32,026 nucleotides of DNA from Acidobacteriaceae bacterium. GTDB lineage: Bacteria; Acidobacteriota; Terriglobia; Terriglobales; Acidobacteriaceae. Made by a program: the position numbers and the translations under genes. This document shows, in pieces, positions 10,291-20,328 of the stretch. Under the pieces are notes generated by a model. The model was not told where the DNA came from. It did no database searches and worked only from the letters and a program-made list of their open reading frames with translations. Each line of letters begins with the position of its first letter. Positions within the stretch are counted from its first letter, which is position 1. The stretch is taken from assembly GCA_003140075.1 (NCBI GenBank), contig PLIO01000161.1, positions 1 through 32,026 of the forward strand, written 5' to 3'.

Positions 10291-11106
10291 CTAGCCGTAC
10301 AGCTTTCCCTGGTCACGCTGAAAGCCGATGCGGGCCACGCCCAGGCAGATCAGAGTGAAGGCAAGGAGGACTTCCCAGTGGGTGGCCGCCGACTCGTGGC
10401 GTCCTGCGCCTACGATCCCCAGCGCGAGTTGCGACAGGTGATAGGGCGGGAGGGCCAACGCGATCTGCCTGACCAGCTTGGGCAGAAACATGTACGGCAC
10501 CCACAATCCGCTACAGAACGACAGCGGCAGATAAAACATGTTGATGACGGCTGGAGCGGAGTTTGGACCGGCGAAATAACCGATTGCCAGTCCCATGGCA
10601 GAGAATGGGAGTGATCCGGCGACTAACGTCGCAATCAGCTTTGCCATTTCAGTAAGCGGCAACCGCACTCCGCCGAAGCTGATGCCCAACACCAACAGCA
10701 GCGAAACGACGATCGCGCTGAAGATCATGCTCAGAACAACCTTGGCCGCGAAGTAGGCGAACGGCGGCATGGGGCTCGCCCGCTTCACCTGGAGCCATCC
10801 CAGCCCGCGGTCGGCCGCCAGCCCGGACGCGGTTCCGAACAACGAAGCTCCCATCACTCCGAACGTGCCATAAGTCGCGATCAAGTAGGTTGGAACACTC
10901 GTGCCCGCGATCGCTTCCTTGGAGTTCAATACCAGCCCGAACAGTACATAGAACATCAACGGAAAGCTGATCACTGACGCCGTATACACGCGCAGGCGAA
11001 GGTTTTTCAGAAACTCATACTTCGCTTCCTTCAAGTAAATGGTTGCGGTGTGGCGAGTGGGGCGCGCGATCTGCGTGTGGCTCAGAGCGGTTGCGGTTGT
11101 ACTCAT
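10291..11106 (-). CDS. ABC-2-type transporter permease
   Basis: The 271-residue membrane protein has about six hydrophobic helices and the ABC-2 layout: cytoplasmic N-terminus with an amphipathic stretch (YLKEAKYEFLKNLRLRVYT), a first helix pair around residues 42-65, the characteristic central region near RGLGWLQVKRASPMP (residues 99-113), and a late motif FYLPLSFCSGLWVPYMFLP. It pairs with the ATPase encoded just upstream (54-base gap). Exporters of this class move drugs, lipids or peptides out of the cell. The substrate is unknown; the linked DesK-like kinase suggests an envelope-stress or antibiotic response. Confidence 0.9.
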   Translation of the reverse strand: MSTTATALSHTQIARPTRHTATIYLKEAKYEFLKNLRLRVYTASVISFPLMFYVLFGLVLNSKEAIAGTSVPTYLIATYGTFGVMGASLFGTASGLAADRGLGWLQVKRASPMPPFAYFAAKVVLSMIFSAIVVSLLLVLGISFGGVRLPLTEMAKLIATLVAGSLPFSAMGLAIGYFAGPNSAPAVINMFYLPLSFCSGLWVPYMFLPKLVRQIALALPPYHLSQLALGIVGAGRHESAATHWEVLLAFTLICLGVARIGFQRDQGKLYG

Positions 11107-11160: not shown

Positions 11161-12114
11161 TCAGTTCCTACGGTCAGTGCTTGCGCCACTATCCTGCGTG
11201 AGAGCCAGGAAGGCTTCTTCCAGACCCGCGCTTGTGATCTCGAGCCCCGAGAGCGTAGGGTCGCGGGCCAGCAAAGCGCGGGCCACAGGCTCGGCTTCTC
11301 TGGCATGGATCTCCACTCCCTCGCGGTCTTGCCTGGCATCGTTCACACCTGGAATCTGCAGCAGATCGGCAACACCGAGCGCTGTGATGCAGCGAATGCG
11401 CTTGCCGCTGGTCTGGGCTTTGATCTCCGCCGGCGTGCCTTCCGCGGTGATGGCGCCCTGGTTGATGACGGCGATGCGGTCGGCGAGAGCGTCGGCCTCC
11501 TCCAGATAATGTGTGGTGAGCAGGACGGTCTTTCCGCGGTCGACCATGCGGCGGATTTCTTCCCATAGCATGCGCCGGGCTTCCACATCGAGCCCTACGG
11601 TCGGCTCGTCGAGAAAGAGCAGGTCTGGGTCTCCGCAAATGGCCAGAGCGAACAGGGTTCTTTGCCTTTGCCCACCGGAAAGATCGCCGAACTTCCGATC
11701 GCGCAATTTCTCCAGACCCGCAGCAGCCAGCACTTCCTCCAGGGGCAACGGTTTTGGGTAATAGCTGGAGAATAAGTCAATGTGTTCGCGCACGCGAAGG
11801 GTTTCCGGTACCCGCCCCACCTGCAGCATGGCGCCGGCGCGCATGCGATTCTGCAGATTGGTGGGATCTCCGCCGAACACGCGGGCGTGGCCGGAATCGG
11901 ATTGAATGAGTCCCAGCAGCAGTTTCACCGCGGTTGTCTTTCCGGCTCCATTAGGGCCGAGCAGTGCCACCACTTGCCCCGCACCCACAGTGAAATTCAC
12001 ACTACGGAGGGCGCGGACTTCACCATAGTTCTTACTGACGCCTTCCAGGCTCGCCACTACAGTGCCGAAGCCTGCACGCTCGATGCCTGGCATTTCTTCC
12101 AGAGTTGAGATCAT
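11161..12114 (-). CDS. ABC transporter ATP-binding protein
   Basis: From the ATG at 12114 (GAGAG six bases upstream) the 317-residue protein carries Walker A GPNGAGKT (53-60), Q-loop Q98, signature LSGGQ (145-149), Walker B LLFLDE (165-170), D-loop and switch H202. The C-terminal about 90 residues form the extension usual for ATPases of ABC-2 drug exporters (CcmA/DrrA type). Longer in-frame starts at 12168 and 12225 lack ribosome-binding sites and would overlap the TGACA-AA-TGTCA dyad. It heads the five-gene minus-strand operon ATPase, permease, small membrane protein, kinase, regulator. Confidence 0.93.
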   Translation of the reverse strand: MISTLEEMPGIERAGFGTVVASLEGVSKNYGEVRALRSVNFTVGAGQVVALLGPNGAGKTTAVKLLLGLIQSDSGHARVFGGDPTNLQNRMRAGAMLQVGRVPETLRVREHIDLFSSYYPKPLPLEEVLAAAGLEKLRDRKFGDLSGGQRQRTLFALAICGDPDLLFLDEPTVGLDVEARRMLWEEIRRMVDRGKTVLLTTHYLEEADALADRIAVINQGAITAEGTPAEIKAQTSGKRIRCITALGVADLLQIPGVNDARQDREGVEIHAREAEPVARALLARDPTLSGLEITSAGLEEAFLALTQDSGASTDRRN

Positions 12115-12325: not shown

Positions 12326-12345
12326 TTGTTACGAAATCCGAACAG
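12326..12345 (+). promoter_or_regulatory. 20-bp operator-like motif, copy 1
   Basis: TTGTTACGAAATCCGAACAG. It matches the consensus TTGTTACGAAnnnCGAACAA at every fixed position except the last. Outer arms TGTT/AACA form a dyad. Confidence 0.6.
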
Positions 12346-12439
12346 ATGCTCCCCGCTTGGGCAACCGGGAACCTAATATGGAGTCGGCGCCTTTCGGGTG
12401 CAACCATAGCGATTCCCCAGGTAAGACGGGGGGAAGAGG

Positions 12440-12459
12440 TTGTTCGCGATTCGTAACAA
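12440..12459 (-). promoter_or_regulatory. 20-bp operator-like motif, copy 2
   Basis: On the minus strand it reads TTGTTACGAATCGCGAACAA, a full match to the consensus. It ends 31 bases before the -35 box of the XRE gene, a position suited to an activator or an auxiliary operator. Confidence 0.6.
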
Positions 12460-12490
12460 AAGCCGATCCGTTCAAATTTCTCACAAATTC

Positions 12491-12520
12491 ATGACACGCA
12501 AACGCACTCCCTGCTATGAT
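12491..12520 (+). promoter_or_regulatory. Promoter of the XRE regulator gene
   Basis: ATGACA (12491-12496), an 18-base spacer and TATGAT (12515-12520) with an extended -10 TG at 12512-12513. The predicted transcript start near 12527 gives a 40-base leader with GGAGG at 12556-12560. Confidence 0.65.
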
Positions 12521-12566
12521 GTCGGACACTTCATTATGATGTTCTCAAGTTCAATGGAGGCCAGCC

Positions 12567-13373
12567 ATGCTCCCAGCCGGTAAGAGTCTTCGCACGCTGC
12601 GCGAGAAACTCGGCTTGACTATGCGCGATATAGAAACTTCCAGTGCGCGCATGGCCGAGAAGTATCGCAACGAGGAATTCTCGATCCCTCCCAGCCGCTT
12701 GTCAGATATTGAGACTAAGGGTGTTTTGCCCAGTATTTTCCGGCTCTATACGCTCGCCGTCATCTACCGGCGCGACATGAGAGAACTGCTGTCCTGGTAC
12801 GGCGTTGACATGAACAACATGGCAGCGGATCTCGGGATGATCGCTCCACCGCGGTCGCACATCTCCGAAACTCTCTCCGGATTATCTTCCGTGCAAATGC
12901 CAATCCGCATGGATCCGGGCTTCGATGACCAACGCACGAGCAATCTGGGGAGGATGGTGGAGCAGTGGGGCCTGGTGCCCTTGTCTTATTTGGCGCAATT
13001 CGCCCACACCGATTTTACCTATGGCTACATTGGTCACCAGGATTTCACCATGTATCCGATTCTTCCGCCCGGCAGCTTCATCCAGGTCGATGAGGCCAAG
13101 AATAAAGTCGTGGAGGGATCCTGGCGGTCGGAATACGAGCGCCCCATCTATTTTGTGGAAACCCGGGATGGATACACTTGCTGCTGGTGCAGTATGCGTC
13201 GCGATGACGTGATCTTGCAGCCGCATCCGCTATCGCCGGTGCCGATCCGGGTTCTGCGCCATCCCCAGGAAGCTGAGATCATCGGCCAGGTGGTGGGAGT
13301 CGCTATGAAGCTGACGGAGTGGCACGCTTTTGGTTCTTCTCCAGGCTCGAAAGCGCAATCAGCACTGAATTAA
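12567..13373 (+). CDS. XRE-family regulator with a degenerate LexA/S24-like C-terminal domain
   Basis: Of 268 residues, about the first 75 form a helix-turn-helix of XRE type (SLRTLREKLGLTMRDIE, PPSRLSDIETKG). The C-terminal half resembles the S24/LexA fold: TMYPILPPGSFIQVD (161-175) aligns with the SMxP...GDxVxVD region, and VILQPHPLSP (215-224) with the LxPxNP region. The catalytic serine position is threonine (T161) and the lysine position appears to be cysteine (C205), so self-cleavage is unlikely; the domain may instead sense a ligand or dimerise. GGAGG lies six bases before the ATG. Two copies of a 20-bp dyad motif upstream suggest autoregulation. The 3' end overlaps a convergent gene by 71 bases. 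Confidence 0.82.
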   Translation: MLPAGKSLRTLREKLGLTMRDIETSSARMAEKYRNEEFSIPPSRLSDIETKGVLPSIFRLYTLAVIYRRDMRELLSWYGVDMNNMAADLGMIAPPRSHISETLSGLSSVQMPIRMDPGFDDQRTSNLGRMVEQWGLVPLSYLAQFAHTDFTYGYIGHQDFTMYPILPPGSFIQVDEAKNKVVEGSWRSEYERPIYFVETRDGYTCCWCSMRRDDVILQPHPLSPVPIRVLRHPQEAEIIGQVVGVAMKLTEWHAFGSSPGSKAQSALN

Positions 13374-13722
13374 GGTGGCTGGCGGAAACTGTGTCCTGCG
13401 GTGAGGGGAGCAGTTCGTTCCCCTGTTCGCGCATGCCTTCGACGTAAGTCGCCGCGCTTTTCTCGCTGCCTTGGCTCGATTCGCGCAAGTCTTCCACCAG
13501 GTCCGATATTGGAGTGCGCAGCACGGTCGATAGCACTTCGCTGTGAGCCGCCTTCAGGGCGCGGTCCGACGATTCTTCCCCGTGCACCAGCGACATGCCC
13601 CAGTGTTGGTAGCCGCCTTCGTGGCGGCGCAGAGAGCCCAAATAGGCGAGTTTCGCCAGCAGCCCGGAAATGGCGGCCAGCGTGGTTTCGCGAAGATCCT
13701 GTAGAGCGGATTTCAGCGTCAT
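13303..13722 (-). CDS. Conserved-looking hypothetical protein, convergent with the XRE gene
   Basis: The 139-residue product is soluble and mostly helical (LKSALQDLRETTLAAISGLL near the N-terminus, LRTPISDLVEDLRESS mid-protein), with a central region rich in histidine, glycine and aromatics (RRHEGGYQHWGMSLVHGEE, residues 32-50). No named family was recognised. AGGA lies about ten bases before the ATG at 13722. The last 23 codons are antisense to the XRE regulator's final codons, so the two genes converge and overlap by 71 bases. Given its position it may function with the regulator; that is inference. Confidence 0.7.
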   Translation of the reverse strand: MTLKSALQDLRETTLAAISGLLAKLAYLGSLRRHEGGYQHWGMSLVHGEESSDRALKAAHSEVLSTVLRTPISDLVEDLRESSQGSEKSAATYVEGMREQGNELLPSPQDTVSASHLNSVLIALSSLEKNQKRATPSAS

Positions 13723-13864
13723 GAACTCGTTTCCTAGGAGTCGAAGTCTTAGAAGAGTCCGCCGAATGTCGGCCTAGTCACAAAAATACCACGTTCAACC
13801 TCAATGACGAAGAGAAACCCTAATGAGATGGACGTCTTATTCCACAGTTGTGACTCCTTAATCC

Positions 13865-13893
13865 TTGCAGCCCCGGAAGAGGCACGGTATAGT
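13865..13893 (+). promoter_or_regulatory. Promoter of the first seven-helix paralog
   Basis: TTGCAG (13865-13870), exactly 17 bases, TATAGT (13888-13893). The expected transcript start at about 13900 leaves a leader of only about eight bases before the ATG at 13908. The same -35/-10 pattern, spacing and leader recur at 15001-15029. Confidence 0.65.
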
Positions 13894-13907
13894 GCCAAGC
13901 GACGGCC

Positions 13908-14702
13908 ATGCTGCAGCCGCATTCATTTCTGTGGCACTATCTGTGGGTCGGGCCTCACGTTCTGCTCGTGGTTTTGGCTGTCCTCGCCTGGCGCCGGGGA
14001 CTCCACAAGTTCTTCCCAGCCTTCTTGTTTTACCTGGTTTACGAGGCTCTGCAGGGGCTCACGCTTTATGTGCTTGATCGTCTCCCCTCAGTCAGCGGTG
14101 ATAACTACTGGCGTGCCGACATCGCCAGCTTGTTTATCGAAGGATTGGTGAAGCTGGCCGTCATTAGGGAACTGTTCTCTCATCTCGTCCGCCCCCGGCC
14201 ATCCGTGGCCAGGCTCGGGAGTCGGTTGATCGTCTGCACGGGGGCGGTTCTTGTGGCGCTGGCGGTGGAGGCTGCCGCGCATGCTCCGATCGCCAATTAC
14301 GCGATCCTTTCGCACGCCCACATCCTCGAAGAAGTGATCTACATAACCGAGTCCGGCCTTTTGTTATTTATCTTTCTCTTCGCGGCGTATCACCATCTGA
14401 TCTGGGACAGGACGGGCTTCGGCATCGCCTTAGGATTGAGCATCTCTGCGTGTGTTGGTCTTGGCGTTTTTGCAACTTGCGCGAACGGAGCTCTCTTCAA
14501 AGGGCGCTATCTTCTCGATTTCCTCGATATGGGCACCTACCACGCGTGCGTTCTGATCTGGTTCTACTACCTGCTGCCGTCAGTCCGCCCGCTCGCCGCC
14601 TCAACCGAGAGCGCCGCTTCCGTGAAAAAGGCAAATGCGCCGACTCATCCGGCAGCTCGAAGGCTCCGGCCAGCGTGGTTGCTCGCGCTTCTGCAGAGCT
14701 AG
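13908..14702 (+). CDS. Seven-helix integral membrane protein, paralog A
   Basis: The 264-residue protein has about seven hydrophobic segments (near residues 15-30, 38-56, 72-92, 104-123, 140-164, 170-192 and 206-224) and a polar Ala/Pro-rich tail. It opens MLQPHSFLWHYLW and has conserved blocks RRGLHKFFPAF, RYLLDFLDMGTYH and CVLIWFYYLL. It is clearly homologous over its whole length to the protein at 15044-15805. No known family was recognised; the pattern suggests a lineage-specific Acidobacteriota membrane family. No good Shine-Dalgarno is present, and the predicted leader is about eight bases, so translation may be near-leaderless. Confidence 0.82.
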   Translation: MLQPHSFLWHYLWVGPHVLLVVLAVLAWRRGLHKFFPAFLFYLVYEALQGLTLYVLDRLPSVSGDNYWRADIASLFIEGLVKLAVIRELFSHLVRPRPSVARLGSRLIVCTGAVLVALAVEAAAHAPIANYAILSHAHILEEVIYITESGLLLFIFLFAAYHHLIWDRTGFGIALGLSISACVGLGVFATCANGALFKGRYLLDFLDMGTYHACVLIWFYYLLPSVRPLAASTESAASVKKANAPTHPAARRLRPAWLLALLQS

Positions 14703-14717
14703 ATTGGGCCTGCGACC

Positions 14718-14737
14718 TTGTTACGAATTCCGAACAA
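14718..14737 (+). promoter_or_regulatory. 20-bp operator-like motif, copy 3
   Basis: TTGTTACGAATTCCGAACAA, a full match to the consensus. Its arms TTGTT/AACAA and the central GAATTC make it the most symmetric copy. It starts 105 bases before the start codon of the secreted peptide gene and lies just after the stop of paralog A. Confidence 0.6.
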
Positions 14738-14822: not shown

Positions 14823-14957
14823 GTGAAACGCCTGCTACTCGTCGCTGCTGCAGCCCTTCTTTTCCTGAATACACTGGTAGTTCCAACGATAGCCCATGCC
14901 GATGGCGGAAGTGGCGGCGGCAACTGTTCCGGCAGTACTGGCTTGTGCAAGCCGTAA
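14823..14957 (+). CDS. Tiny secreted two-cysteine peptide precursor (44 residues)
   Basis: Starting at GTG 14823, with AAGGAG eight bases upstream, the frame encodes a classic signal peptide (MKRLLLVAAAALLFLNTLVV, then PTIAHA) and, after a predicted cut at residue 26, an 18-residue glycine-rich mature part, DGGSGGGNCSGSTGLCKP, with cysteines at precursor positions 35 and 42 that could form a disulfide. It is too short for ordinary gene calling but has a strong ribosome-binding site. It sits between two paralogous membrane proteins and downstream of an operator-like motif shared with the XRE regulator. A signalling or antimicrobial peptide is possible; no known family was recognised, and function is unproven. 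Confidence 0.7.
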   Translation: MKRLLLVAAAALLFLNTLVVPTIAHADGGSGGGNCSGSTGLCKP

Positions 14958-15000
14958 GTCGAGAGGCAGTTACAAAAAACGAACGCAGCTCACGAAGGTG

Positions 15001-15043: not shown

Positions 15044-15805
15044 ATGCTGCAACCGCATTCACTTTTGTGGCACTACTTGTGGGTCGCACCCAACGTGCTG
15101 CTCGTCGTTCTTGCCTTCCTGATGCGAAGGCGTGGACTTCACAGGGAGTTCCCGGCTTTCTTCTGTTACGCCATTTTTGAGGCGGTGGGAGGAATAGCCA
15201 TCTATGCCATAGACGTGAGTCCGTCGATCTCCGGCCCGGTTTATTGGTGGAGCTACTTTGTTTTCTTGGTCGTTGAAGTTTTCGTAAAGTTCATCGTCAT
15301 TGGTGAGGTTTTTACTCACCTCTTGCGTCAGTACCCTCCGCTTGGCAGAACGGCGAAGGCACTCGTTAGTGCCGTCGGCATCGTTCTCGTATTTGCGGCG
15401 ACGATCGTCGCTACGCACGCGAATCCCACGACGTTCTGGCTGATTTCCGCCACGCGCATTCTGGGTAGAAGCGTAAGTGTGGTGCAGTGTGGATTAATTC
15501 TTTCTCTTCTTATCTTCGCCGCTCACTTTCACCTGAGGTGGGACCGCTCTGTTTTTGGTATCGTCCTTGGCCTCGGTATCGTCGCCGGGGTCTATGTGGC
15601 CTATTGGGCCCTGATGACCGAATGGCTCTTTGGGCAGAGAACCTACCTTCTAGATTTTCTCAACATGGCCACGTACCACCTCTGCGTGCTGATTTGGTTT
15701 TATTACCTCCTCGTCCCCCAGAAGAGTGCCACTACGTCTGCGGCTCCTTTGCCCGAGAATAATCTCGACATCTGGAACCGGGAACTGGAGCGTTTACTAC
15801 AATAA
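15044..15805 (+). CDS. Seven-helix integral membrane protein, paralog B
   Basis: The 253-residue paralog of the protein at 13908 shares MLQPHS-LWHYLWV, RRRGLH-FPAF, the mid-protein charged loop before LRQYPPLGRTAK, YLLDFLNMATYHLCVLIWFYYLL and the same seven-helix layout. The tail differs, ending NNLDIWNRELERLLQ. Codon and base use match the neighbours, so this is an old tandem duplication rather than a recent import. The promoter-to-start block is nearly identical to that of paralog A. Its stop overlaps the next start (TAATG), giving translational coupling with 15805-16344. Function unknown. Confidence 0.83.
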   Translation: MLQPHSLLWHYLWVAPNVLLVVLAFLMRRRGLHREFPAFFCYAIFEAVGGIAIYAIDVSPSISGPVYWWSYFVFLVVEVFVKFIVIGEVFTHLLRQYPPLGRTAKALVSAVGIVLVFAATIVATHANPTTFWLISATRILGRSVSVVQCGLILSLLIFAAHFHLRWDRSVFGIVLGLGIVAGVYVAYWALMTEWLFGQRTYLLDFLNMATYHLCVLIWFYYLLVPQKSATTSAAPLPENNLDIWNRELERLLQ

Positions 15806-16344
15806 TGAATCTGGCCATCGTCCTTGTCATTGCCGCTGTACTTGCGCTGAGTATTATTCTGCGCCTCGCTGTAACGCAAAGCCTGCAGGCCAAGAGAAGC
15901 GCCAACCTGGCCGGCGCGATCCGTCCAATCGACATTGAAGCGTTCCGCAATTTGATCAACCCTGCCGAGGACGAATACCTGCGGCGTCGTCTGCCGCCGG
16001 CGCAGTTTCGTCTGGTGCGCCGTGAGCGTCTGCGCGCCATGGCCGTCTATGCTCAGGCTGCAGGAAGAAACGCCGCAGTGCTGGTGCGCGTGGGTGAGGC
16101 AGCCCTAGCTAGCGGCGATCCGCGAGTTGCCGAAGCGGCTCACCAACTGGTGAGCGATGCGCTTCTACTCCGCCGCAATACCACCGTGGCGCTGGCGCGG
16201 ATCTACCTGGCATTGGCTTGGCCGAACTCCAGGTTCGCTGCAGTGCGAGTGGTCGACCGCTATGAGCAGGTGAGCGGCACGGCGATGCTCCTGGGGCGAC
16301 TACAAAATCCTGCCGTCCCGGTTCGCCTGTCCGCTCTGTCCTAG
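15805..16344 (+). CDS. Membrane-anchored helical protein, coupled to paralog B
   Basis: The 179-residue protein begins with one transmembrane anchor (residues 3-22) and continues as an Arg/Ala-rich helical domain (NPAEDEYLRRRLPPAQFRLVRRERLRAM and helical hairpins after it) that could be a TPR-like or HEAT-like fold on the cytoplasmic face. The ATG shares one base with the stop of the preceding gene (TAATG), so the two are almost certainly translated together, which suggests the proteins act as a pair. No named family was recognised. Confidence 0.78.
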   Translation: MNLAIVLVIAAVLALSIILRLAVTQSLQAKRSANLAGAIRPIDIEAFRNLINPAEDEYLRRRLPPAQFRLVRRERLRAMAVYAQAAGRNAAVLVRVGEAALASGDPRVAEAAHQLVSDALLLRRNTTVALARIYLALAWPNSRFAAVRVVDRYEQVSGTAMLLGRLQNPAVPVRLSALS

Positions 16345-16581: not shown

Positions 16582-19500
16582 ATGATCCGCAGGATCACCA
16601 TGCACAGCCTGAAAGCCTTTTCCCTCTCACTGTTTGCCCTATTGCTTTGCTCCATCGCCTTGGGGCAGGGCGGCGTCGCCACGGGCGATCTGCTTGTAAC
16701 GGTGAAGGATCCCAAGGGGAGTCTTGTGACCAACGCCACGGTCACGGTGAGCGACCTTGCCAAAGGCTTGGAGCGCAGCGCCACCGGCGACGGCCAAGGC
16801 GGCTACAGCGCCCGACTGCTTCCGCCGGGCACTTATACGGTCACGGTGCAAGCGCCCGGCTTTGGCAAGGCCGAAGCCAGGGATGTCGGCATCACGGTCG
16901 GCGGACTAGTGGAGCTTCCGGTTGAGCTCGCAGTGGCTACCGGCAAAGAAGTGGTAGAAGTCAGCTCCCAGGCGGAATTGGTGGAGACGTCGCGCACCTC
17001 GACCACGGACACGATCGGACAGCGCCGCATCGACAATCTGCCGATCAACGGCCGCAATTACATCAACTTCACGCTGACCGATTCGCAGGTGGTACGCGAC
17101 AACGCCCCGAACACCGGTGCCGCGCCCACTTCCGGCCTAAACATGAGCGGCCAGCGCGCGCGCTCGAACCTGGTGAATGTCGATGGCGCCGACGCCACCG
17201 ACAACTCCACCAACGGCGTGCGCTCCACCGTTTCTCAGGAGGCGGTGCAGGAATTCCAGATCATCACCAATAGTTACAGCGCCGAATATGGCCGCGCCGC
17301 GGGCGGGGTGGTCAACATCATCACGCGCTCGGGATCGAATGATTTCCACGGCGACGTCTACGGCTACCTGCGTAACCGGAATTTTCAAGCGGTGAACCCG
17401 TTCAGCACGGTTCCGAATCCCGCTTACACCCGCGTTCAGGCCGGTGCCGCTTTCGGTGGACCGATCAAGAAGGACAAGACCTACTATTATTTCTCGTACG
17501 AGGTTACGCGGCGGCATGAGACCGGATTTTCAGACATCGGCCAGGGCAACTTCGGACTGGTGCCCTTCGACGCGTCGCCCTTCTTTGGCGCTCCCGCGGG
17601 AGCGTTTGGGATTCAAGTTACGCCAGAACAGGCGGACTTCCTCAGCACCCCCGGACTGCCCTTATCTCTGCTCCAGGAGTACGCGATCACGACGGGAGCA
17701 GCCTCCGGCCTTGCCGTCAACGGCAGTTATCCGGCAGCTTTTGGGCTGTTAGTTGGCGCTCCCGGAGGACTGCCCGCTCCCACCAATGGAAGCAATCCTC
17801 TGGCGCAATTTATTACATCGTGCAACAGTTCGGCGCCGCTCTGCAACGGTGTTCCTACGTCTTTCACATCGCTGAGCTCGCAAGTTGGCAATTTTCCGGT
17901 GTTCGAAGGCACCAGCCTTTACTCACTGCGGATTGACCATAACGTGAACAACAACAACCGGCTGACGCTGCGGGCGAACGTGAGTCCGAGTACGGTGACG
18001 GGAATTGAGGTCAGCGGTCAAGATCAACCCTTCGGGCAAAACGCATACTCGCGCACCTCGCAACAGACATACCGCGACGTGAGCGGAGTCGTGAAAGACA
18101 CATGGACCCTCGGCACCAACAAGGTCAATGAGTTTACTTTTCAATATGCGCGCCGCGGGCTTTCTTATTTCTACAATACGCAGATTCCAAGCGGCTCCGA
18201 CCCTGCCGTAAACATTCCGGGTTTCGCCTATTTCGGCCGCGAGCCCTATTCCTACATCCAGCGAGTAGAACAGCGCTACCAGTTCACTGACAATTTCTCC
18301 TGGACGATCGGCAGGCATCAGACCAAGTTCGGCGTGGATTTCAACTATCTGCCTCTCACCGCGACGTTCACAGTGAATTACGGCGGAGTTTACGACTTCG
18401 GCTCTATCAGTGCTGCCGATCTTGGATTTTCCGTGACCGGCCTCGCCATTCCTGGATTAAACGCCGTGCAGGCTTACGGTGCGGGACTTCCCGGAGACTT
18501 CATCCAGGGCTTCGGCAGCCCAAGCGATTCATTCAGTAACAAGCCGCTGGGCGCGTTCTGGCAGGATTCCTGGCGGGTCAGCCCTAAGCTCACGCTAAAC
18601 TACGGCGTCCGTTACGACGTCGAGTTTGCACCGCAGTTCAAGCCGCCGGATGCACTTGCGCTGGCAGGATACAACTTCCTGGGACTGCAAAAGGGAATCC
18701 AGACCGATACCAACAACGTCCAGCCCCGCTTTGGCCTGGCGTGGGATCCGAAAGGCGACGGCAAAACCGTGGTCCGCGCCTCCTACGGCATCTTCTATGA
18801 CCATCCGCTGCTCGGCCTCTACTTCCTAGGAGACGCTTCCGACGGGTCCACTAGCGGCCAGTTGGCGTTCGCCGGAACGGGAGGGTGCAGCGGGGCCGGC
18901 AGCCCAAGCAACCTAAACGCAATCCCGATTTTTCAGGGACTGCCCATCAACGTTCCCAGCTTGGCCAATCCCTGCGCCGCTTCTATCAACCCAGCGGTCA
19001 CCAGCGCTCTGGGATTTCTTCCGAACCAGCAGCAATTTCAAGCTTTGAATTTTCCCCAGTCGATTTTTCTCAACCAGAACTATTTGAGTTCTTCGTCGCC
19101 CCTGGCGCTGGCCTTCCAGCCCTTTGGCTATCCGCAGTCCAAGAACTTTGTCTACGCCTATTCGCAGCAGGTTAATTTTAGTATCGAGCGCGATCTGGGC
19201 GATGGTTTTGCTTTCAGCCTGGCCTACAACTTCAACGGCGGGCGCCATCTCAACCGGCCGATCAACGCCAACACGATCCGTGGCGATCTGATGATCGACA
19301 ATTACGAGACAGCCCTGGCGGCTGGCCAAACTCCAAGTAGTCCCTTTACGGTGAGTGGCTGCGGCCTCGCGGGCACGACTCCTTACGTCGATTCCTCGCT
19401 CATGAACTTCTTCCGTCCGTCCGGGTTGAACCCGTCGGTTGCCGCTTTTTACCTCTCAAGCGTACCGGGCGGCGCAGCCTGCGTGGGCCTGGCGCAAAGC

Positions 19501-20328
19501 GTTCTGCAGAGCTTGGTCCCTCAGGGTTTCAATGCCAATTGCGATCCCACTTCGCTCGCCAACTGCGTCCCGTTCGGCGACATGGACGCTAACTACTCGA
19601 ACGGCAGTTCCGTGTATCATGGTCTCACCGCCAACCTGCGCAAGCGCTTCAGGAGCCACTACGAATTTCTGGCTTCTTACACCTGGTCCCACGCCATCGA
19701 CGATTCGACCGATCTACAGTCCACCCTCACGCCGCAGGACAGCTACTTCCCCTCCGCGGACCGTTCCACGTCCCTGTTCGATCAACGCCAGCGCTTCGTC
19801 TTCAGCGGCGTCTACCAGTCGGGTAGGCTTGGGGGAAATGGCTTCAGCAGCAAGTTCTTCAGCAATTGGACTTTGGCTCCCATCATCGAGGTTGCGTCCG
19901 GCCGGCCTTTTAATATCATCACCGGCAACGACGACAATCTGCAGCTATCCTCGCTGACGGGCCGGCCCAACACTTTCGTCAACGCGGGATGTACCGCTCT
20001 TGGCTATCCTTCGGTACCGTCGAAGTACTCTCCAACGGGAGTTTTCCAGGAACCTTGCGGCGCGGACTTCAACGGAACGCTCCAGTCTCTCGACGGCAAC
20101 CTGGGCCGCAATGCCGGCCTTCAGCCCTGGACGATCTTCAACGACATGCGCGTGGCCAAGCGGATTTATTTCAGCGAACGCTACAACATGGACTTGATCG
20201 CCGACATGTTCAACATCGCCAACCGGTATAACGTGGCCGCTGTCAGCCCGCTGTTTACCAACGCCGGCCAGGCCACGGCGGCTTACGATCCGCGGCAGTT
20301 CCAGTTCGCGTTGAAATTCAACTGGTAG
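16582..20328 (+). CDS. Oar-like TonB-dependent outer-membrane receptor
   Basis: The 1248-residue protein has a signal peptide (to about residue 29, LCSIALGQ), a carboxypeptidase-regulatory-like (Cna-B-type) domain (about 33-115, ending PPGTYTVTVQAPGFGKA), a plug domain (about 125-250, with RRIDNLPINGRNY and VNIITRSGSNDFHG) and a long 22-strand-type barrel ending in the aromatic FNW, the C-terminal signal for the BAM machinery. The size and layout are those of the Oar-like receptors expanded in Acidobacteriota, thought to import oligosaccharides or other large substrates using TonB. AGGGGA six bases before the ATG at 16582 supports this start. A CRP-like dyad precedes it and a hairpin follows it. 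Confidence 0.93.
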   Translation: MIRRITMHSLKAFSLSLFALLLCSIALGQGGVATGDLLVTVKDPKGSLVTNATVTVSDLAKGLERSATGDGQGGYSARLLPPGTYTVTVQAPGFGKAEARDVGITVGGLVELPVELAVATGKEVVEVSSQAELVETSRTSTTDTIGQRRIDNLPINGRNYINFTLTDSQVVRDNAPNTGAAPTSGLNMSGQRARSNLVNVDGADATDNSTNGVRSTVSQEAVQEFQIITNSYSAEYGRAAGGVVNIITRSGSNDFHGDVYGYLRNRNFQAVNPFSTVPNPAYTRVQAGAAFGGPIKKDKTYYYFSYEVTRRHETGFSDIGQGNFGLVPFDASPFFGAPAGAFGIQVTPEQADFLSTPGLPLSLLQEYAITTGAASGLAVNGSYPAAFGLLVGAPGGLPAPTNGSNPLAQFITSCNSSAPLCNGVPTSFTSLSSQVGNFPVFEGTSLYSLRIDHNVNNNNRLTLRANVSPSTVTGIEVSGQDQPFGQNAYSRTSQQTYRDVSGVVKDTWTLGTNKVNEFTFQYARRGLSYFYNTQIPSGSDPAVNIPGFAYFGREPYSYIQRVEQRYQFTDNFSWTIGRHQTKFGVDFNYLPLTATFTVNYGGVYDFGSISAADLGFSVTGLAIPGLNAVQAYGAGLPGDFIQGFGSPSDSFSNKPLGAFWQDSWRVSPKLTLNYGVRYDVEFAPQFKPPDALALAGYNFLGLQKGIQTDTNNVQPRFGLAWDPKGDGKTVVRASYGIFYDHPLLGLYFLGDASDGSTSGQLAFAGTGGCSGAGSPSNLNAIPIFQGLPINVPSLANPCAASINPAVTSALGFLPNQQQFQALNFPQSIFLNQNYLSSSSPLALAFQPFGYPQSKNFVYAYSQQVNFSIERDLGDGFAFSLAYNFNGGRHLNRPINANTIRGDLMIDNYETALAAGQTPSSPFTVSGCGLAGTTPYVDSSLMNFFRPSGLNPSVAAFYLSSVPGGAACVGLAQSVLQSLVPQGFNANCDPTSLANCVPFGDMDANYSNGSSVYHGLTANLRKRFRSHYEFLASYTWSHAIDDSTDLQSTLTPQDSYFPSADRSTSLFDQRQRFVFSGVYQSGRLGGNGFSSKFFSNWTLAPIIEVASGRPFNIITGNDDNLQLSSLTGRPNTFVNAGCTALGYPSVPSKYSPTGVFQEPCGADFNGTLQSLDGNLGRNAGLQPWTIFNDMRVAKRIYFSERYNMDLIADMFNIANRYNVAAVSPLFTNAGQATAAYDPRQFQFALKFNW

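Follow-up and report, generated by a model that had tools for sequence, protein, structure and literature searches.

In this study we analysed a stretch of 32,026 nucleotides from an Acidobacteriaceae bacterium (NCBI GenBank assembly GCA_003140075.1, contig PLIO01000161.1; the whole stretch is called the window) and a dyad motif that stands upstream of two of its genes. One of them encodes an XRE-type regulator of 268 amino acids (12567..13373, plus strand), assigned from orthologs in the genus, from a helix-turn-helix (HTH) part that is confident in the structure model and from weak HTH matches of most homologs in Pfam. The other, at 14823..14957 on the plus strand, is a plausible gene for a secreted two-cysteine peptide of 44 amino acids: its GTG start codon at 14823 is preceded by AAGGAG, and it recurs in relatives. 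Next to it on the same strand lies mem253 (15044..15805), a predicted seven-helix membrane protein, assigned from its structure model and from its co-divergence with the mature peptide. The original prediction had been that three copies of a 20-bp dyad link the regulator and the peptide gene in a small regulon. All three were located, at 12326-12345 (plus strand, with a deviating last base), 12440-12459 (minus strand) and 14718-14737 (plus strand), and with them the proposed arrangement of two copies upstream of XRE and one 105 bases before the peptide gene. At up to three mismatches to the 20-mer the window holds exactly these three; the mean in dinucleotide shuffles was 0.05, and none of 100 shuffles contained three. 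Two details changed. The conserved core is shorter, an 18-bp dyad TGTTACGAAnnnCGAACA in which a 4-bp spacer separates arms of 7 bp, because the T and A at the ends of the 20-mer vary; and there is a weak fourth copy.

Counted by this core, site A (TGTTACGAAATCCGAACA; 12327..12344, plus strand) lies upstream of XRE and of a divergent ABC operon, and site B (12441..12458, minus strand) is convergent to it, 114 bp apart; both come from the window scan, A with its conservation in the genus and B with its spacing and column identity across the genus loci. Site C (14719..14736, plus strand), kept in the genus loci, is found 86 bases before the peptide start codon when counted from the end of the 18-mer; for the 20-mer, the first base is 105 bases from the start codon and 85 bases separate the last base from it. 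The weak site D (14968..14985, a derived position, plus strand) has three mismatches to the 18-mer and precedes mem253, and relatives retain a copy. A search for RNA elements in the window gave no Rfam match.

The relatives in our comparison are metagenome assemblies titled Candidatus Sulfotelmatobacter, Acidobacteriaceae or similar. Within the genus we found an XRE match, in some cases partial, in 34 of 37 genomes, the full-length orthologs being 79-95% identical, and in none of 14 genomes of a sister family. Site conservation was followed in the window and in 34 of 39 further loci (L142-L146, partial or diverged, were omitted, and L101 stands outside the set). Each of these 35 loci has a convergent pair of sites ahead of XRE with a spacing of 111-114 bp, and mean column identity is 0.96 at site A and 0.94 at site B against 0.48 in the remaining 300-bp upstream region. 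An equivalent of site C (up to two mismatches) stands 85-88 bp ahead of the peptide start in 31 of the 33 loci from which the peptide was recovered, and a weak site (up to three mismatches) lies downstream of the peptide gene in 32 of the 33. L101 (genome G031) has a single upstream site at up to two mismatches; its second site has three. The scan of the genome and its relatives that had been suggested with the prediction finds the motif again upstream of the orthologs of both genes.

Sites of this kind are numerous in the genomes. In the host genome the 20-mer (up to three mismatches) has 26 matches, compared with 12 for the reversed pattern. For the 18-mer, five genus genomes together hold 67 sites at up to one mismatch (strong sites) and 2 for the reversed control; at 9-20 sites per genome, the regulon is not the small one that had been proposed. 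At up to two mismatches, 35 of the 37 genus genomes have more sites than reversed-control matches; the 14 genomes of the sister family of the order have 17 sites against 15. Strong sites that were placed are intergenic in 55 of 56 cases, with one inside a gene; the other 11 belong to the XRE loci of G014, G036, G019 and G026, outside the regions used. Among the control sites 21 of 31 were classed, and 16 of the 21 lie within genes, 14 of these 16 carrying two mismatches. Both figures depend on codon-usage gene calls from a home-made and crude caller that misses small genes. A cruder placement, by longest open reading frames (ORFs) of at least 80 amino acids and the 20-mer at up to three mismatches, puts 11 of the 26 host-genome sites within some ORF; several of these ORFs are short or have a low G+C content at third codon positions, or overlap the site via an over-long start, and one has 881 amino acids. 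Many motif copies per genome might also be expected of a dispersed repeat, and this or a random spread had been named as a point to be checked. We consider such an origin practically negligible and rejected it, as the 18 bp are conserved at the XRE locus within diverged flanks, the sites are mostly intergenic and the distance to the peptide start is fixed.

Several observations tie the dyad to XRE. Outside the genus, the family includes 28 genomes in which XRE is strongly matched (E<1e-80); they have 53 sites at up to one mismatch and 14 for the reversed control, whereas the 45 genomes without such a match have 6 and 9; motif numbers in the two groups differ with a Mann-Whitney p of 2e-5, which is optimistic given the kinship of the species. 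Counted here are the family genomes common to the XRE search and the motif scan, absence of XRE being taken from non-listing in 21 of them. In the genus, G010, G018 and G021, the three genomes that lack an XRE match, together show 18 sites at up to two mismatches against 14 for the control. Among 78 XRE homologs, 15 have a dyad with at most one mismatch to TGTTCnGnnnnCnGAACA within 400 bp upstream, where mononucleotide shuffles lead one to expect about 0.05; the set omits uncovered starts, upstream regions below 150 bases and duplicates, and one site (L150) enters the count twice, for two divergent genes. Neighbours of XRE also carry dyads (22 of 221 regions, some double-counted) and hence were unusable as a control, so that shuffles were used. 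For homologs from other families of the class the same search was positive in 13 of 20 (11 of 11 in family f6 and 2 of 2 in f13). Part of the diverged homologs are preceded by related dyads of 18 bp, for instance TGTTCCGAAACCGGAACA and TGTTCTGAATTCAGAACA, and some paralogs by one that differs in its letters and shares the 7-4-7 layout (TGGTC...GACCA). Altered letters beside diverged homologs are the trace one would expect of changing specificity in an autoregulated family.

There are also counts that weigh against the link. In G009 XRE is present without an excess of motifs (8 against 8 in the control), of the 28 family genomes in which XRE is strongly matched 13 have no 18-mer site at up to one mismatch, 63 of the 78 homologs lack the consensus dyad upstream, and none of seven homologs from families f5, f7, f10 and f12 showed it in the same search. 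From the dyad-less homologs it follows either that specificity drifts or that the link between XRE and the dyad is not universal. A motif scan cannot by itself tell which protein binds, and another transcription factor might occupy the dyad with XRE as merely one of its targets. This seems quite improbable to us, because motif number tracks the presence of XRE and because 7-4-7 dyads with changed letters precede part of the diverged XRE homologs. In our judgement the dyad is highly likely to be the operator of the XRE protein, and very probably one that serves a genus-wide regulon. The idea of an autoregulated XRE that also controls the peptide gene draws support from site conservation across species, from the way motif number follows the presence of XRE and from the related dyads beside diverged homologs, and we regard such control as probable. 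In loci L148-L155 (genomes G003, G004, G012 and G023), XRE paralogs are divergent to a protein of about 550-590 amino acids that matches the XRE profile twice, as if it were a tandem-fused form of the regulator; some of these paralogs have upstream dyads with altered letters.

In the structure model of XRE, for which orthologs 60-95% identical were supplied (mean pLDDT, the predicted local distance difference test score, of 45) the HTH part reaches mostly 71-91 and the C-terminus stays below 50. A Pfam match to HTH_31 (E<=0.1) was obtained for 42 of 50 XRE homologs, and the HTH chains of DdrO match the XRE profile with a best E of 1.4e-4. LexA/CI-like repressors combine an HTH with an S24 domain. 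XRE resembles them in its HTH and in its paired operators, and its C-terminal part aligns co-linearly and end-to-end with LexA S24 domains in hhalign (E 0.0012 for one comparison, probability 20%). It differs from them at the putative catalytic serine, a column assigned by motif and dependent on the alignment, which holds Thr in 44, Ser in 3, Met in 2 and Arg in 1 of the 50 homologs; self-cleavage of XRE is for this reason unlikely. The lysine column is not alignable with trust. Pfam found S24 in 1 of the 50, at 0.047, a count that weighs against the reading favoured below. A CxxC at residues 205-208 of the window's XRE, with each Cys kept in 49 of 50 diverse homologs, could serve in metal binding or redox sensing.

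The link between peptide gene and XRE in the original prediction is supported. The prediction had missed that the gene belongs to a conserved module with the seven-helix protein. This module comprises XRE, a convergent ORF, the two-cysteine secreted peptide, the seven-helix protein and a small anchored protein. The convergent ORF is orf139 (13303..13722, minus strand), and the small protein is p179 (15805..16344, plus strand), which has an N-terminal hydrophobic stretch by its sequence; both recur in the loci of relatives. An outer-membrane beta-barrel protein (OMP_b-brl_4; 16582..20328, plus strand) adjoins the module, with a match in each of 17 genus loci. The order XRE, orf139 on the opposite strand, site, peptide, seven-helix gene, p179 and outer-membrane protein is kept in the 17 relatives with long flanks; in one of them (L098) the peptide gave no tblastn match, and its ORF was recovered by scanning. 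Searched by sequence against Pfam, NCBIfam and PDB, XRE, mem253, p179, orf139 and the peptide gave no convincing family beyond the weak HTH matches of XRE.

The module extends beyond the genus. The XRE profile matches in 257 of 399 genomes of the class, including many weak matches in the host's family, and in a phylum sample of 149, full-length matches were listed outside the class only in two genomes of one genus. By fixed rules, 28 loci from other genera of the family contain orf139 in 27 cases, p179 in 25, a seven-helix gene in 22 and a two-cysteine secreted peptide in 18; for 20 loci from other families the numbers are 18, 1, 12 and 9. In several of the latter the seven-helix gene is followed by a protein of the size of p179 with one or two hydrophobic stretches, too diverged for the p179 profile. 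ORFs of this kind are uncommon elsewhere: in sequence taken from other loci, the peptide rules catch 9 in 1.04 Mb of strand. Left out of these counts are three paralog loci (L254, L259 and L283), one class peptide (L309) is doubtful, and the seven-helix rule also catches the ABC permease, which is its sole catch in L091. In three loci of family f7 (L320-L322) the seven-helix gene and an adjoining gene for a small membrane protein lie on the opposite strand to XRE, and neither peptide nor dyad was found there; the module may work differently in this family.

The mature part of the peptide is hypervariable. A scan without a cysteine rule, which the remaining peptide searches did use, found two-cysteine peptides at the same position, both within the genus and in about twenty loci from other genera; their mature parts diverge strongly between genera, and the two cysteines are retained. 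One precursor carries three near-identical cores (L307) and another two (L310), five tandem genes share one identical mature sequence in L312, and L311 has two identical genes. The repetition points to the short core as the relevant product. In the 32 of 35 genus loci with all five genes recovered, mean pairwise identity is 86% for XRE, 51% for mem253 and 47% for the mature peptide. The mature peptide follows mem253 when XRE is held constant (partial Mantel r 0.45, p 0.0005), and it follows neither p179 (-0.14) nor orf139 (-0.11). Mere linkage is a poor explanation for this, since the signal sequence of the same ORF follows mem253 weakly (0.11, p 0.04) and the mature peptide shows no correlation with the DNA that separates its gene from mem253 (-0.05). 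The predicted outer loops of mem253 correlate with the peptide at 0.43 and the inner loops at 0.15 (p 0.03); by position, the first two thirds of the protein follow it (0.46 and 0.47). Three results weigh against pairing by specificity: the DNA between peptide and mem253 itself follows mem253 (0.32, p 0.0005), as does the signal sequence with the mature part held constant (0.31), both being signals of linkage, and the final third of mem253 fails to track the peptide (0.12, p 0.13). Some of the co-divergence may thus come from linkage.

NCSG peptides occur in 6 of the 32 loci, namely the window and five loci whose mem253 is 64-75% identical to that of the window, whereas a relative closer by XRE (95%) with another peptide has a mem253 just 56% identical. 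It looks as if peptide and mem253 types move between species. Between orf139 and the peptide gene the window has an additional seven-helix gene, mem264 (13908..14702, plus strand), assigned by its similarity to the seven-helix proteins of relatives; the 17 relatives have one such gene at the locus and the window two. Its best matches are these proteins (50-54% identity), its type differs from mem253, and it has neither a dyad nor a peptide of its own. It may be a leftover of a type exchange or an extra receptor.

The model of mem253 (pLDDT 84) has seven long helices and a short C-terminal helix, basic residues lie in the predicted inner loops, and the charge rule puts the N-terminus outside; model and loop charges together predict seven membrane helices with the N-terminus out and the C-terminus in. 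A VIA-align comparison listed seven-helix receptors first (Z 13.9, 200 residues, root-mean-square deviation 3.9). We used it for helix number and topology alone. A Z of about 13 can reflect a common helical arrangement, and folds missing from the listing carry no meaning. Foldseek with the model gave nothing significant (best E 0.15), a result that we count against the peptide-receptor reading. The protein resembles G protein-coupled receptor (GPCR)-like seven-helix receptors in its helices, its outside N-terminus and its C-terminal helix; it differs in having no visible sequence relation to them, and from helices arranged alike neither common origin nor common function can be deduced. Taken together, a peptide-receptor system at this locus has, in our judgement, a slightly better than even chance.

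Outside the locus, predicted targets of strong sites include TonB-receptor-like, Omp85, FG-GAP/Ig-type, acid phosphatase, pro-kumamolisin-type, papain-family and PqqD genes, and many have no Pfam family. Two findings count against the reading favoured below: signal-like N-termini are found in 14 of 41 targets against 37 of 187 (p 0.06, suggestive and weak), and few targets outside the locus are common to the five species. The core of the regulon is accordingly the locus itself, with the remaining targets changing fast. In G000 the putative sites of the regulator reach many unrelated genes. Close to other dyad sites we found five signal-like small ORFs besides the window's peptide, none of them a similar two-cysteine peptide by eye. 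A PqqD-family gene of G026 (L198:3521-3913; E 9e-16) starts about 15 bp past a perfect dyad, which hints that some modified-peptide clusters belong to the regulon. In G019 a 47-aa ORF without a Pfam match (L190:4001-4144), about 490 bp from a perfect dyad, resembles a modified-peptide precursor. Among the few shared targets is a zinc-finger-like protein of 53 amino acids that two species (L009:3149-3310 and L188:3309-3470) encode 66-70 bp away from a perfect dyad; it matches the DnaJ central domain with an E of about 3e-5, below the cut-off.

The main alternative for the locus is that the peptide is a microcin-like antimicrobial, mem253 the immunity protein of the producer and XRE the regulator of production. 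Peptide and immunity pairs would co-diverge too, and an ABC-2 type operon stands beside the module. In the window it consists of an ABC ATPase (11161..12114, minus strand) divergent from XRE and an ABC-2 permease (10291..11106, minus strand), both known from the domain scan and the loci of relatives; in the genus, 14 of 17 relatives have it upstream of XRE, pointing away from the same pair of sites (two of the others have no match and one a distant ATPase), and shared control from these sites is possible. In other genera, however, the loci show just two distant ABC ATPase matches (27-29%) near XRE, and the regulator, orf139 and p179 still accompany the pair; the reach of the putative sites in G000 to many unrelated genes counts against this alternative as well. 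We regard an antimicrobial role as unlikely, if less so than a second alternative, in which the two-cysteine peptide would be a periplasmic sentinel of the disulfide or envelope state, read by mem253 without exchange between cells. The cysteines in peptides found without a cysteine rule and the near-invariant CxxC of the XRE homologs (49 of 50 per position) are what such a sentinel would predict. A hypervariable mature part that pairs with mem253 alleles fits specificity better than a general sensor, and we give this explanation a small chance.

Known systems offer partial parallels to a peptide-receptor module. Rgg is an XRE-type HTH regulator, and by HTH pLDDT, HTH_31 and DdrO profile matches the window's regulator is of this type as well. 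In Rgg-SHP peptide quorum sensing of streptococci, the regulator adjoins a short peptide gene (PMC3679016). The likeness is an HTH regulator encoded next to a small exported peptide; the differences are a Sec-like signal sequence, two cysteines, a seven-helix protein in the module and Acidobacteriota as hosts. No TPR domain was seen in the window's regulator, nor any TPR family in 50 XRE homologs with Pfam at E<=0.1, again unlike Rgg-SHP. The Agr system consists of the AgrD peptide, the AgrB membrane protein and AgrC/AgrA. Our locus shares with it a hypervariable peptide paired with a co-varying membrane protein and is unlike it in that none of the nine window proteins scanned was a histidine kinase or response regulator; the AgrB family had no match at E<=1 in 32 of 33 mem253 proteins, and the single match (E 0.0081) is taken as chance. 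In the portions of open-access PMC text covered by our search we found no description of a peptide-signalling system in Acidobacteriota, nor of this module or regulon.

Motif, conservation, XRE link, gene set and the co-divergence of mature peptide and mem253 were computed directly. Building on them, we favour, somewhat above even odds, an operator combined with a peptide-receptor signalling module, for which we infer the following steps. XRE would bind the 18-bp site with its 7-bp arms and 4-bp spacer and, as a repressor or an activator, govern its own gene via the two convergent sites 111-114 bp apart, as well as the peptide gene, the mem253-p179 operon and a genus-wide set of further genes. 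The peptide would be exported by the Sec route and matured by removal of its signal sequence, and its short two-cysteine mature part would be recognised by the periplasm-facing side of mem253. From the membrane the signal might reach the intracellular XRE, perhaps via p179, and alter its action at the dyads.

The phylum Acidobacteriota is abundant in soil and difficult to cultivate. Even if the peptide were a bacteriocin, the operator yields a readable regulon for a poorly known lineage. A signalling system would provide a concrete peptide for synthesis, a testable receptor and an operator for reporters, and would show that disulfide peptides with seven-helix receptors are in use among Gram-negative bacteria. 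It is a tentative possibility, a little short of even, that Acidobacteria of this class have a new form of peptide communication, with a hypervariable disulfide-type mini-peptide (sometimes in near-identical repeats within one precursor) and a seven-helix receptor that reads it without a kinase and acts, by way of a membrane-anchored small protein, on an XRE regulator with genome-wide dyad operators; peptide and receptor types would be exchanged between species like pherotypes.

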